Below are positions 1 to 11,096 of a stretch of 33,960 nt of DNA, piece by piece. A program made the translations under genes and the position numbers. This DNA comes from Elusimicrobia bacterium CG_4_9_14_3_um_filter_62_55 (GTDB lineage Bacteria > Elusimicrobiota > Elusimicrobia > UBA1565), in assembly GCA_002790095.1 (NCBI GenBank), contig PFUL01000119.1:1-33960 (forward strand). The letters run 5' to 3'. Every line of letters begins with the position of its first letter. Positions within the stretch are counted from its first letter, which is position 1. Below the pieces are notes generated by a model that was given only the letters and a program-made list of their open reading frames with translations, was not told the origin of the DNA and did not search any database.

Positions 1-885
1 CAGGTAGATTTGGGTAGTCTGGACCGACTCATGCCCTAGCCAAAGAGCGATCATGGAACGATCCACGCCAGAGTGCAGCAATTCCATGGCCGCCGTGTGG
101 CGTAGGACATGCGGTGATACCCGCTTGCGCTTGATGGACGGACAGATAGCCTGCGCTGCTCGGGCGTACTTGGCCACCAGATATTGAACGCCGTCGGGGC
201 TGAATCGCCCGCCATGTCTATTGGGGAAGACGACATCGGTGGGCGCCCCGCCCCGCTCCTTTATCCAGGCCCGAAGCACGATCCGCGTGTGGCGAGTAAG
301 CGGCGTACAACGCTCCTTGCGTCCTTTGCCCCGACACCGGACATGAGCGCCTATATCCAGGCTGACATCCTCACTGCGAAGTCCGATAAGTTCCGAAAGA
401 CGAAGGCCCGTCTGAATGGCCAGCAATAAAAGGGCGTAGTCGCGGCGCCCCGTACGGGTTGCTCGATCCTGCGCCGAAAGGAACGCTTGTATTTCCGGCC
501 GCGTCAGAAAGTCGACCAACGGGTGGTCCTGTCGTTTGTCGGGGATGGCCAAGACCCGCTGGATGAGGTTGGATTGTCCCGGTTCCTGAAAAGACACATA
601 CCGAAAGAACGAGCGGATGGCGGTCAGTCGGAGATTGCGACTTTTTGCTTCGTTGCCGCGCTTCTTTTCCAGATGCTCAAGGAATGCGCCGATAAATGAC
701 GCGTCTAAATCCTCCAGGCCGAGGGACGAGGGAGGCTTCTTCAAGCGATCTTGAGCGAAGCGAAACAACAAACGGAATGTGTCGCGGTAGGATGCGATCG
801 TATGCGGGCTGGCTCGTCGTTGAGCTATGAGGCGATCGGTAAAGAACGACTGAAGCAGTGCGGGCAGAGAATCTATGGTTGTCAT
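1..885 (-). CDS. ritC: RIT tyrosine recombinase, third gene (partial at C-terminus)
   Basis: This is a phage-integrase-family tyrosine recombinase; 295 residues are visible before the window edge. I chose the ATG at 885 because it overlaps the preceding stop (ATGA) and has a GGAGG seven bases upstream. The N-terminal SAM-like core-binding domain covers about residues 1-115 (motif ASPHTIASYRDTF), and the catalytic domain follows. All catalytic positions are visible: Arg in TGLRLSEL, Lys in GKGRKER, HVLRH, the second His in LGHES, and the nucleophilic Tyr in TTQIYL at the very end. Only the short tail after Tyr is cut off. In RIT elements the three proteins are thought to act together on the element ends. 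Confidence 0.85.
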   Translation of the reverse strand, partial: MTTIDSLPALLQSFFTDRLIAQRRASPHTIASYRDTFRLLFRFAQDRLKKPPSSLGLEDLDASFIGAFLEHLEKKRGNEAKSRNLRLTAIRSFFRYVSFQEPGQSNLIQRVLAIPDKRQDHPLVDFLTRPEIQAFLSAQDRATRTGRRDYALLLLAIQTGLRLSELIGLRSEDVSLDIGAHVRCRGKGRKERCTPLTRHTRIVLRAWIKERGGAPTDVVFPNRHGGRFSPDGVQYLVAKYARAAQAICPSIKRKRVSPHVLRHTAAMELLHSGVDRSMIALWLGHESVQTTQIYL

Positions 886-1814
886 TGAGCAGCCTCCCAT
901 CGTTTTTCAAGTCGGCCCGTCGTCAACGCTAAGAGTTCCGGAACGGCGGACAAATACCAATAGGTGTCTTCCACGTGGCCATGGCCGAGGAACGTGGACA
1001 ACACCGGCAGGCGCCGCTCCACGTCGACGCCGGAGCGATACCATCCCAGCAGGGTTCTGACCGCGAATCGGTGTCGAAAATCGTGCAGCCGCGGGCCGGA
1101 ACTCGCCGAGGGCTTGCGAAGCCCGATCCGGCGTGAGAGGCGGATGAACGTCCACCGGACCATGCAATCGGTGATGGGACGCCCTTGGTCGGACAAGAAG
1201 AAGGCCCCGGAGTTGGGAAACCGATGGATAGCGTCCCGCCGTTTGACGTATCGCCGAAGCGTTCGGGCGGTAGAACGGTGCAGGGGAACGAACCGTTCCT
1301 TGCCGAACTTGGCATGTCGTATTCGCAGAAGGCCCTGAAGGATGTCTACGTCGTTGCGCTGGAGACCGATGGCTTCGCTTACGCGCAATCCGGTAACGGA
1401 CAAAAGACCCAGGAGCGTGGAGTAGGTCCAGGGCCGTAGTCCCACGCTCGAAGGAAGAGTTTTAGCCGTTTTTACCAACAGCCTGATCTCGTCATCACGA
1501 TACAGATAGGGCGTGCTCCTCGGGTAGCGGCCGGGGAACAATCCCAGGGGCGGAACTTCGGTCCGAGGATCGGTAGCGCTTCGATAGCGGGCGAACCCCC
1601 GGACGAAGCCGAGTCGCTGGCCGCATACGGCCGGATGTACACCTGGGGACTGTCTGACCCAACTCAAGGCGAGCGCCGTGGTGATATGAGAAGCCCGTTT
1701 TCGTTCCAGAAAATCCACGAACTTGCGGAGCTCAGCGCCTGCCGAGACCAGCTTGAATCCCAGGGATCGGCGCAACGCCAGGTAATCTTTGAGGGCTCTT
1801 CGCAAGGGATTCAT
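882..1814 (-). CDS. ritB: RIT tyrosine recombinase, second gene
   Basis: A tyrosine recombinase of 310 residues starting at MNPLRRALKDYLALRR. The ATG at 1814 overlaps the stop of the upstream recombinase by four bases and has GGGAGG six bases before it, so a possible TTG start 18 bases further upstream is less likely. Residues 1-100 form the DNA-binding SAM-like domain. The catalytic domain shows Arg in TGLRVSEA, Lys in KFGKERFVPL, HDFRH, LGH and Tyr in DTYWYL. The VEDTYWYL ending is typical of this recombinase subgroup. It lies between the other two trio members and must be co-translated with them. All active-site residues are present, so the protein is probably functional. Confidence 0.88.
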   Translation of the reverse strand: MNPLRRALKDYLALRRSLGFKLVSAGAELRKFVDFLERKRASHITTALALSWVRQSPGVHPAVCGQRLGFVRGFARYRSATDPRTEVPPLGLFPGRYPRSTPYLYRDDEIRLLVKTAKTLPSSVGLRPWTYSTLLGLLSVTGLRVSEAIGLQRNDVDILQGLLRIRHAKFGKERFVPLHRSTARTLRRYVKRRDAIHRFPNSGAFFLSDQGRPITDCMVRWTFIRLSRRIGLRKPSASSGPRLHDFRHRFAVRTLLGWYRSGVDVERRLPVLSTFLGHGHVEDTYWYLSAVPELLALTTGRLEKRWEAAQ

Positions 1815-3046
1815 CGTGAGCCTCCCGGCCAAGACAGAGCCAGCGGACGCAGAGATGTCAGGTCCACCTTGGCGTAAATCGAAGTAGTATCGGCGCCTCG
1901 GTGTCGTAGGAGTTGGCCGATTTCTGTCAGCGACGCTCCGCGACGCAGCATGTTTGTGGCCAGGGAATGGCGAAACAGGTGTGCTCCTTGGCGAGCGGAA
2001 GAAACGCCGGCGCGTTCCAACGCTCTCTGGACTATGTCGCCCACCGACCCGGCATGGCTAAACCCTTGGCGCGGAGCTCGGCTACGGATGAATACTCTTC
2101 GGCTTGAACACGGCGGCCGGCTCTTCTTGAGATAGCTCGCCAAGGCCCGCCCGACGTTATGGGGCATGGGCAGGCGGGCTTGCCGCCTCCCCTTCCCTCG
2201 AACGGTTATAGCGCCGGTCTCCCAGTGAAGATCGTCAAGCGTCAGGATCATGACTTCGCCCGCCCGCAGGCCCAAATGCGCCAACAACATCAAAACAGCA
2301 TAGTCGCGACGACCTATAGGCGTTCTGCGGTCACAGCCTCCAAGAACCCGTCGCACTTGGTCGGGTGATAGGAACTTGGGCAATGTCGACAGCCGCCAGG
2401 TGGCGATGGTGGGTACGCAGGCGGCCAGATCGGTTTTGACGAGATCTCGATGACGGAGGTGGCGCAGGAAAGAACGCAATGCCGACACCATGAGCCCCGC
2501 GCGCTTTGGGCAAAAATCGCGGGCATGGCGCTGGACATGCCCCGTAATGTCCGTCGCACGCAGCCGATCGAACCTGAGGGGTCTTCGTTCGAAGCGCTCA
2601 GCGAGGAACCGCCGGACGAAAGGCAGGTAGTTGGTTGCCGTCGCCTGAGACAGCCCGCGCTCGTCAAAGAGGTAGCGTTCGAAATTCTCTTCCGCGAGTT
2701 CTCGCGCATTTTTTGCGCGAGGTGGCGCTTCCGAGGGCAAAATCCCTTTATGGCGCAAGAAGGCCAGGTAACGTTTCGAAACGGAATGCTCGCCGCGCCG
2801 AACACGCCACCGCCTCTTACGAAACCGGAAGTAACAGGCGACCGTGGCCGGAGTCAGGTCCTTGGCCTGGAAACCTCGCTGTTGCAGCCATTGGCTGAGG
2901 ACCGCCACCCATCGGATCTGCCAGGTGGCGTATACCGGGTAATAACCCTGCTCATGCAAAAGAGCGGCGTATTCGTCGGAGTAAGGGCCCAATGGGCCCT
3001 CGTGCATGTATGTACGGATTTTGGGATTAAGGAATTCATGGGCCAT
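1811..3046 (-). CDS. ritA: RIT tyrosine recombinase, first gene
   Basis: A tyrosine recombinase of 411 residues, the longest of the trio, with an additional N-terminal segment of about 100 residues before the SAM-like domain. The ATG at 3046 (MAHEFLNPK) is chosen because an AAGGAG sequence ends six bases upstream; the frame stays open further upstream but only through the element end. Catalytic residues are visible: Arg in LGLRAGEV, Lys in GKGRRQA, HLFRH, LRHRG in place of the usual LGH, and Tyr in DTTSIYAKV. The first gene of the trio sits next to the repeat array at the element end, where recombinase binding and the promoter of the operon should overlap. The Gly-to-Arg change in the second His motif is also seen in some active family members. 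Confidence 0.87.
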   Translation of the reverse strand: MAHEFLNPKIRTYMHEGPLGPYSDEYAALLHEQGYYPVYATWQIRWVAVLSQWLQQRGFQAKDLTPATVACYFRFRKRRWRVRRGEHSVSKRYLAFLRHKGILPSEAPPRAKNARELAEENFERYLFDERGLSQATATNYLPFVRRFLAERFERRPLRFDRLRATDITGHVQRHARDFCPKRAGLMVSALRSFLRHLRHRDLVKTDLAACVPTIATWRLSTLPKFLSPDQVRRVLGGCDRRTPIGRRDYAVLMLLAHLGLRAGEVMILTLDDLHWETGAITVRGKGRRQARLPMPHNVGRALASYLKKSRPPCSSRRVFIRSRAPRQGFSHAGSVGDIVQRALERAGVSSARQGAHLFRHSLATNMLRRGASLTEIGQLLRHRGADTTSIYAKVDLTSLRPLALSWPGGSR

Positions 3047-3091
3047 ATTCTTCTCCTTATTCATTGGGATTACTGATGAGAAGAACAAAAA

Positions 3092-3176
3092 ACTATGCCG
3101 AGTCACCAAGCCTAAAACTGCGGCCTTCCGACGGAGAGCCCCAGGCAACTCGGCATAGTCCTGAACCCGGCATAGT
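3092..3176. repeat. Terminal repeat array of the RIT element
   Basis: Twelve bases ACTATGCCGAGT at 3092-3103 are repeated exactly in inverted orientation at 3148-3159. A third, shorter copy (CGGCATAGT) lies at 3168-3176 in direct orientation to the second, with 8 bases between them. The outermost copy coincides with the end of the interrupted host gene. Such arrays are what tyrosine recombinases bind; I infer that they mark the element end and its recombinase-binding sites. Confidence 0.7.
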
Positions 3177-3885
3177 GGCGCAGCACGTGCGGCGAGACGC
3201 GGCGCGTTACCCCTGCTTGGCGGGCGTAGTCTTTGAGCCGCCGCCATAGGTGGGTGCGGCGCAGAGGTCCGCCGCGGGCAGTCAGAAACAGGACGCCGGC
3301 GATCTCCGGAAAGCGTCGCCTTCTAAGGGCGCGGTAGCGCTCCAGCGCCTGGCCGGCGCGGCGACCGAAGGGAACGATGCGCTCGCGACCGCCCTTGCCG
3401 CGCACGCGCAAAGTTCCCGTGTCGAGTTCGATCTGCCCGGCCTCGAGGCAGACGAGTTCGCTGATCCTTAAGCCCGTCGCGTAGAGGAGCTCGAGGATCG
3501 CCTTGTCGCGGATGTGGACGAAGCGAGGACCTCCGGGCTGTTCCAATAGGCGGGTGATCTCATCGCGGGTCAAGGGCTCGGGCAGCTTTGGCCGGAGCCT
3601 GGGGAGTGGGATTCCAACGGTCGGATCGACCGCTCCCAGGAATCGGTAGAAGTGTCGCAAGGCGATGATGGCCTGATGGATGCCACCCGGGCCGAGGCCG
3701 TTTCGCTGCCGGCTTTTCAGGTAGTCGCGCACGGCCTTCTGGTCGGCTTTTTCAGGAGTGCGGCCCCGGCCTTGGAGGTGGGTCAGATAGGCACGGACCG
3801 CGTAGCCGTAGGTCTCGACTGAACGTGGGGCGAGCCAGCGTTGCTCGGCGAGGTGCGCCAGAAAGGCGTCGAGACGAGAATCCAC
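3112..3885 (-). pseudogene. Xer-like tyrosine recombinase interrupted by the RIT element
   Basis: A XerC/XerD-type recombinase reading from a GTG at 3885 (preceded by GAGG). The SAM-like domain (about residues 1-90, motif RSVETYGYAVRAYL) and most of the catalytic domain are intact: Arg in TGLRISEL, Lys in GKGGRER and HVLRH near residue 237. Directly after HVLRH the sequence changes; 20 foreign residues encoded by the element end follow to a stop at 3112. A complete Xer protein has about 300 residues, so the second His motif and the nucleophilic Tyr are missing and the product should be inactive. The missing tail is expected beyond the other end of the element, outside the window. It could be the chromosomal dimer-resolution recombinase or belong to an older mobile element. 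Confidence 0.85.
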
Positions 3886-10812: not shown

Positions 10813-11096
10813 GGGATTAGTCTCTAAGCAAATAATAGGGGTCAACCGGCAGTTAAGACGATTCGGCAAGGGCGGGCAAGACGGCTTAAGTCTAAGGGGG
10901 CGTGCAGGGAGTGAAGACCGTTGGGCAAAGCGCCCGACAAAACGACAGGATGGAGGATGAAACGGATTCTCGGCGGCTCACGAAACTATTATACCACAGG
11001 ATCTTCAGTGAGGGATTCTCGGGAGGACTGACCTTGGTCATTGGGCGCAGCGCGCGGAATTCCTAGGATTAAAACGGCAGGATTAGAGAGGCGGGT

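Follow-up and report, generated by a model that had tools for sequence, protein, structure and literature searches.

Catalytic Arg-His codons of tyrosine recombinase genes as the probable preferred target of one clade of RIT elements

Introduction

In one contig of an uncultivated elusimicrobial genome, a gene for a tyrosine recombinase breaks off within the codons of its own active site, and three further tyrosine recombinase genes lie behind the break. The question raised by this locus is whether the break is a single event, or whether it marks a target used by such recombinase trios in general. The stretch of DNA analysed, hereafter the window, comprises the 33,960 nucleotides of contig C25 in its entirety, from the assembly of Elusimicrobia bacterium CG_4_9_14_3_um_filter_62_55 (4.31 Mb, 202 contigs), and its position 1 is the contig end.

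Known RIT elements of Cupriavidus, Aromatoleum and other bacteria are alike in having three overlapping tyrosine recombinase genes on about 3.5 kb, with inverted repeats, while the accounts of them consulted here name single host genes and give no convincing target or ends (PMC3414803, PMC2864759). The host genes named are radC and IS66 tnpA (PMC2864759) and the Tn6049 transposase (PMC3414803), and RIT target specificity is tabulated as not tested in PMC10214605.

Results

A RIT element within a XerD-like gene

All four genes were assigned to the tyrosine recombinases by Pfam and NCBIfam. The features of the locus, all on the minus strand, are the following:

1..885, ritC, with an ATGA overlap with ritB at 885-882, cut by the contig end
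98..103, Arg-His spacer of ritC itself, ACGCCA, the join point with the palindrome in the deleted copy on contig C7
882..1814, ritB, with an ATGA overlap with ritA at 1814-1811
1811..3046, ritA, with ATG at 3046 and AAGGAG upstream, coding for a long N-terminal part and the catalytic domain
3093..3175, ritA-side element end of 83 bp; the same end adjoins the ritC tail on contig C7
3102..3093, inverted arm CTCGGCATAG, part of the ritA-side end
3158..3149, inner arm CTATGCCGAG, part of the ritA-side end
3175..3166, outer arm CTATGCCGGG, part of the ritA-side end
3176..3181, GCGCCA, the 6 bp proposed as crossover spacer (third base of Leu, CGC for Arg, CA of His)
3176..3885, 5′ part of the XerD-like gene, broken off within the Arg-His codons of SPHVLRH

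The XerD-like product reaches only position 240 of the 290 positions of the XerD profile and terminates at ...VSPHVLRH. The element begins at 3175 with CTATGCCGGG, right behind the CTG CGC CA of this gene; the bases next after ...VSPHVLRH, CTATGCCGGGTTCAGGACTATGCCGAG, form a pair of repeats at the element end. In a preliminary description of this DNA, a trio of recombinases was said to interrupt a fourth tyrosine recombinase gene, which is borne out by the domain assignments and by the stop of the XerD-like gene at ...SPHVLRH. The join had also been placed directly behind the HVLRH codons; it is indeed situated at this motif, but within the codons, at the spacer GCGCCA (3181..3176).

Several properties identify the trio. 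The three genes are adjacent, run in the same direction with short overlaps, and show A/B/C homology in the known RIT order: ritA shares 45-51% identity with RIT proteins from Cupriavidus necator pHG1, from Aromatoleum EbN1 and from further bacteria, the RITs of pHG1 and of the Aromatoleum plasmid giving 45-47%, and ritB and ritC are 57-58% and 60-67% identical to RitB and RitC, respectively, of acidobacterial RITs. The residues R...HxxR...Y are present in all three translations, as HLFRH...Y in RitA, HDFRH...Y in RitB and HVLRH...Y in RitC. Only one element end, that on the ritA side, lies within the window; as the same 83 bp are found beside ritA here and beside a ritC tail on contig C7 (8026-8108), they constitute a terminal inverted repeat. 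If the two ends are alike, the 3175 bp in the window and approximately 210 bp of ritC tail and end on C7 add up to an element of about 3.4 kb. Indirect hints of mobility come from the presence of several sites in one genome and of identical copies on one plasmid. The gene set intA-tfp-intB-srap of strand-biased circularizing integrative elements (SEs) is absent, related complete elements holding three Rit-type proteins and no fourth gene; a 6-bp spacer of the SE kind, where one end keeps the bases of the target and the other those brought by the element, can be recognized by sequence. An intein or homing intron does not fit either, with no splicing domain present and the host gene left with stops or frameshifts. 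Judged by gene content and homology, the window carries a RIT transposable element, ritA-ritB-ritC, on the minus strand.

Further cut genes in the same genome

A DNA search of the genome revealed a second Xer-like gene, on contig C7, cut behind SPHTLRH by the same end and 33% identical to the XerD-like gene of the window; no genome copy of this end besides that on C7 was found. The order on C7 is the N half of the Xer-like gene, the 83-bp end, a reversed ritC tail, a palindrome joint and the rest of the gene. The ritC tail stops exactly at the Arg-His codons of ritC, where it is joined to GTGTGACGC-CTATGCCGAGTTCGGCATAG-GCGTCACACC, and past the palindrome the Xer-like gene resumes as HTFATQYIRNGG...LGHSTLEMVRNYV, so that both of its halves are present and the element is a deleted RIT copy. 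The last 37 codons of ritC can be read on C7, and positions 1-99 of the window are identical to C7, from which they diverge at the Arg-His spacer of ritC. With this shared ritC tail and its 99-base overlap, the elements on C7 and in the window may partly be one and the same.

By a pattern search, a third Xer-like gene (78% identical to that of C7) was found on contig C107, broken at SPHTLRH by the bare 20-bp palindrome and one 6-bp spacer, which amounts to a 26-bp frameshift; this is the single case of a bare palindrome scar. Joining of the flanks restores ordinary recombinase frames in both the C7 and the C107 gene. A comparison with empty sites in related genomes, as had been proposed, gave results for both kinds of targets: genomes G027, G032 and G031 hold uninterrupted homologues of the C7/C107 gene with 68-82% identity, and G016 holds an intact homologue of 332 aa of the window gene. 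In the elusimicrobial genome itself, a homologue of the window gene on contig C178 (77% DNA identity) runs on unbroken past the Arg-His site. A continuation of the window gene was not found in the assembly, the contig stopping at position 1. The 20-bp palindrome had no exact copy in 334 other genomes of the phylum and one match in viral contigs, outside any recombinase gene, and phage records yielded only weak relatives of ritA.

Two observations on these contigs stand apart. The C178 homologue (locus L006, 9802-11088) is cut at ...QAMLGH by a different insert, whose ends are TTATGTAGC/CACATAA; positions 1-160, at the opposite end of this 11-kb contig, hold a C-terminal piece that matches it, as if a circular replicon had been opened inside an insertion sequence. 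On C7 (locus L008), a second, 5′-truncated C-terminal copy of the Xer-like gene, beginning with HTFATQYI, is located at 10918-11034.

The same codons in RITs of other bacteria

Relatives of ritA were gathered from GTDB contigs, plasmids and whole genomes, giving about 80 RITs from several phyla, and the RIT flanks were searched with a profile constructed for the catalytic domain of recombinases. Column 144-145 of this profile, which corresponds to Arg-His, is where the flanking recombinase fragments break off or begin. Distinct junctions at these codons, at the same position of the reading frame, amount to 25 on the N-terminal (upstream) side and 21 on the C-terminal (downstream) side; all 25 N-side junctions hold a spacer NMGNCA at the same position, and each of the 11 elements with both target halves allows them to be rejoined in frame into an ordinary HxxRH region. 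Targets are unrelated Xer/integrase-like genes as well as ritB and ritC of other RITs, while ritA was not seen as a target among the mapped junctions. The pattern recurs on complete plasmids of P. hospita and M. huakuii, on pHG1 and on Aromatoleum plasmid 2, which rules out assembly artefacts; the last of these carries two identical RITs that occupy the Arg-His site of two distinct recombinase genes.

The recombinase fragments beside RITs could be thought of as a piece of a fourth gene carried by the element, instead of an interrupted target. The fragment in the window, taken alone, does look attached, and some RIT flanks are pieces of ritB or ritC. On the other hand, the flanks derive from many unrelated recombinases, the second half is found across the element and can be fused in frame with the first, and uninterrupted homologues exist, all of which makes such an origin very improbable. 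The identical RIT copies with different flanks refute it, and it was rejected on this ground.

Accumulation of RITs in recombinase-rich islands, with the exact codon being a coincidence or resulting from homologous recombination between recombinase genes, was considered as well. In its favour, RITs are nested in one another on pHG1 and on the Aromatoleum plasmid, where halves have been swapped (the N half of ritB with the C half of ritC). Yet random insertion cannot produce the identical 6-bp position in the 25 and 21 junctions with element arms directly attached, different Xer genes of one genome were hit alike, and the same search gave 0/36 among RITs outside one clade. This explanation is hardly credible, and the precision of the junctions led to its rejection. 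Chance is excluded, as identical codons are cut in two more genes of this genome and by dozens of RITs elsewhere. Since relatives of the element in many bacteria are inserted at this one point of various recombinase genes, Arg-His targeting is, by the junctions mapped, a genuine rule rather than a one-off.

One clade, and other targets

The preliminary description left open whether RITs use this target generally, and the answer is confined to a part of the family. Of the 76 rows in the ritA tree, 40 form one branch (SH-aLRT 97), which was set against the 36 others: with the same search applied, 21 of the 40 had an Arg-His target, at the same codons every time, compared with none of the 36. The label is clustered on the tree, with 6 changes against 18.6 in shuffles (0/500). 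The remaining clade members are distributed among IS66 genes (five), radC (one) and those without an assigned target (13). It had also been held that copies at unrelated sequences would tell against the proposed target; sites in the own genome and those of most assigned clade members are at Arg-His. RITs outside the clade were found in IS66, ISL3-type and other transposase genes, in radC and in other genes. Because of these, and of the clade members in IS66 genes (five) and in radC (one), the Arg-His rule, as read from this tree, holds for one large RIT clade and not family-wide. The published radC, IS66 tnpA and Tn6049 cases agree with the targets other than Arg-His seen here.

RITs of the same and of other clades lie in IS66 transposase genes at L085, L066, L113, L064, L072, L036 and L108, some at the conserved DNN motif and others near the C-terminal element; by their position, these insertions make up a second class of targets, in which conserved codons of a gene from a mobile element are hit. 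The RIT in radC at L086 resembles two published radC cases, although its clade sits mostly in recombinase genes. At L141, on the minus strand, a RIT whose ritA lies near 42.4-43.7 kb of pHG1 and which has the same kind of arms interrupts a ritB gene at ...VIRSSKFR, which, from the site read there, is a conserved recombinase motif other than Arg-His.

Anatomy of the junctions

N-side junctions read gene-NMGNCA-arm, the arm being CTATGCCG or a lineage variant, and complete C-side junctions read element-spacer-palindrome-NMGNCA-gene. The NMGNCA spacer encodes Arg-His, and the inner spacer, between element and palindrome, is the reverse complement of a hexamer of the NMGNCA kind. The 20-bp palindrome consists of two element arms and lies C-terminally in every case, irrespective of element orientation: the ritA side adjoins the N half of the target in L029, L030, L044, L045, L137, L140 and L143, with ritC nearer the palindrome, and the C half in L128, L134, L136 and L141, with ritA nearer. 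On C7 the spacer on the ritC side of the palindrome is GCGTCA, which differs from the ACGCCA of ritC itself and supports a C-side spacer brought in by the element. In nearly all cases the carried and inner spacers read as Arg-His codons, in line with what earlier sites of this type would have left. Outside the conserved codons no clear DNA preference emerged, the base pattern around the site resembling that of intact recombinase genes.

Some structures depart from this order. Elements between two N halves, devoid of a palindrome, were found in L031, L032, L130 and L142 and once in L143; they require a later rearrangement and thus count against the simple model. The palindrome stands between two C halves on C7 and in L143. 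Both forms would fit exchange at Arg-His sites, and homologous recombination between copies is a possible alternative origin. On Aromatoleum plasmid 2 (L143 and L047), the N half of ritB is combined with the C half of ritC and two C halves are joined by the palindrome, giving chimaeric recombinase genes.

Discussion

A model of integration

The element ends fit integration by tyrosine recombinases with a 6-bp spacer. In the model that we propose, RitA, RitB and RitC would form a circle whose junction consists of two inverted sites sharing the palindrome, each with the core CGGCATAG - 6 bp - CTATGCCG. Strand exchange across the spacer could join either core site to the Arg-His codons of a target; the 6 bp of the target would then remain on the N-terminal side, and those brought by the element would come to lie on the C-terminal side. 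Recombination of the inner site with another Arg-His site would lead to rearranged forms, including a deletion at the codons of ritC itself; the C7 form would be the expected product of such self-targeting. Loss of the element could leave the 26-bp scar, with the target gene still broken. Considering all junctions, we assign a probability of roughly 85% to the reading that the catalytic Arg-His codons of H-x-L-R-H in tyrosine recombinase genes are the preferred site of this clade, with integration as modelled.

Instead of being selfish, the insertion could serve as a reversible switch for regulation of the host recombinase, given that the element is bounded by inverted sites, could excise, and interrupts genes which are complete apart from the insert. 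We consider this improbable: the sole palindrome-only site retains its 26-bp frameshift, the targets are diverse and often other RITs, the host range is wide, and no hint of a maintained function was seen.

The preference for Arg-His codons may have different grounds. As the host genes often belong to other mobile elements, the element would spread among recombinases and disable them, and the claim in the preliminary description that a competing enzyme is inactivated follows for the broken genes as regards loss of function. With the same integration mechanism, the target could also owe its preference chiefly to being a safe haven or vehicle, and not to warfare on competing recombinases. RITs outside the clade, which use IS66, ISL3-type and other transposase genes, and thus mobile-element genes generally, plus radC, speak for this, and conserved codons are a dependable target without any warfare; by itself, however, it does not explain the choice of catalytic codons. 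We regard the chances of the safe-haven reading as evenly balanced. More tentatively, and with some doubt, the elements could be described as recombinase-hunting transposons, in which a circle with a double inverted site would hit the Arg-His codons of any tyrosine recombinase, relatives and itself included, leaving palindromic scars by which the enzyme stays inactive and, through the swapping of halves at these codons, producing chimaeric genes.

Relation to known systems and significance

Codons that are most conserved within a gene family are a dependable target, as is known from homing introns and inteins in active-site codons; RITs differ from these in that they do not splice and leave the host gene broken. 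In the Tn554 family, several recombinases act jointly on a conserved gene site without target duplication, although with different proteins and another target than RITs.

SEs also employ tyrosine recombinases and a 6-bp spacer between end motifs, with experimental support, and keep the 6 bp of the target at one end while putting those of the donor at the other (PMC10214605). RITs resemble them in the spacer and in this distribution of target and carried bases over the two ends. The core of an SE comprises four genes, tfp and srap among them, and SEs have a median length of 15.7 kb and one attachment site (PMC10214605), in contrast to the three recombinases and the putative double inverted site with palindrome of RITs. 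GInts share three integrase-like genes and the character of target-specific islands, and differ in having a fourth gene, ginD, large islands and other targets (PMC5385486). Compared with the published RITs, a clade-wide target at the recombinase Arg-His codons is added here and the end structure is resolved.

RITs are widespread, and in the literature searched neither their ends, nor a general target, nor an earlier record of the Arg-His rule was found. A target in the catalytic codons of their own enzyme family explains the nesting of RITs in one another. The rule predicts where insertions and scars should be sought in any genome, and its target would be a substrate for a first in vivo test of RIT movement. 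Finally, the clade may be taken as a natural case of an element disabling rival and sister recombinases.
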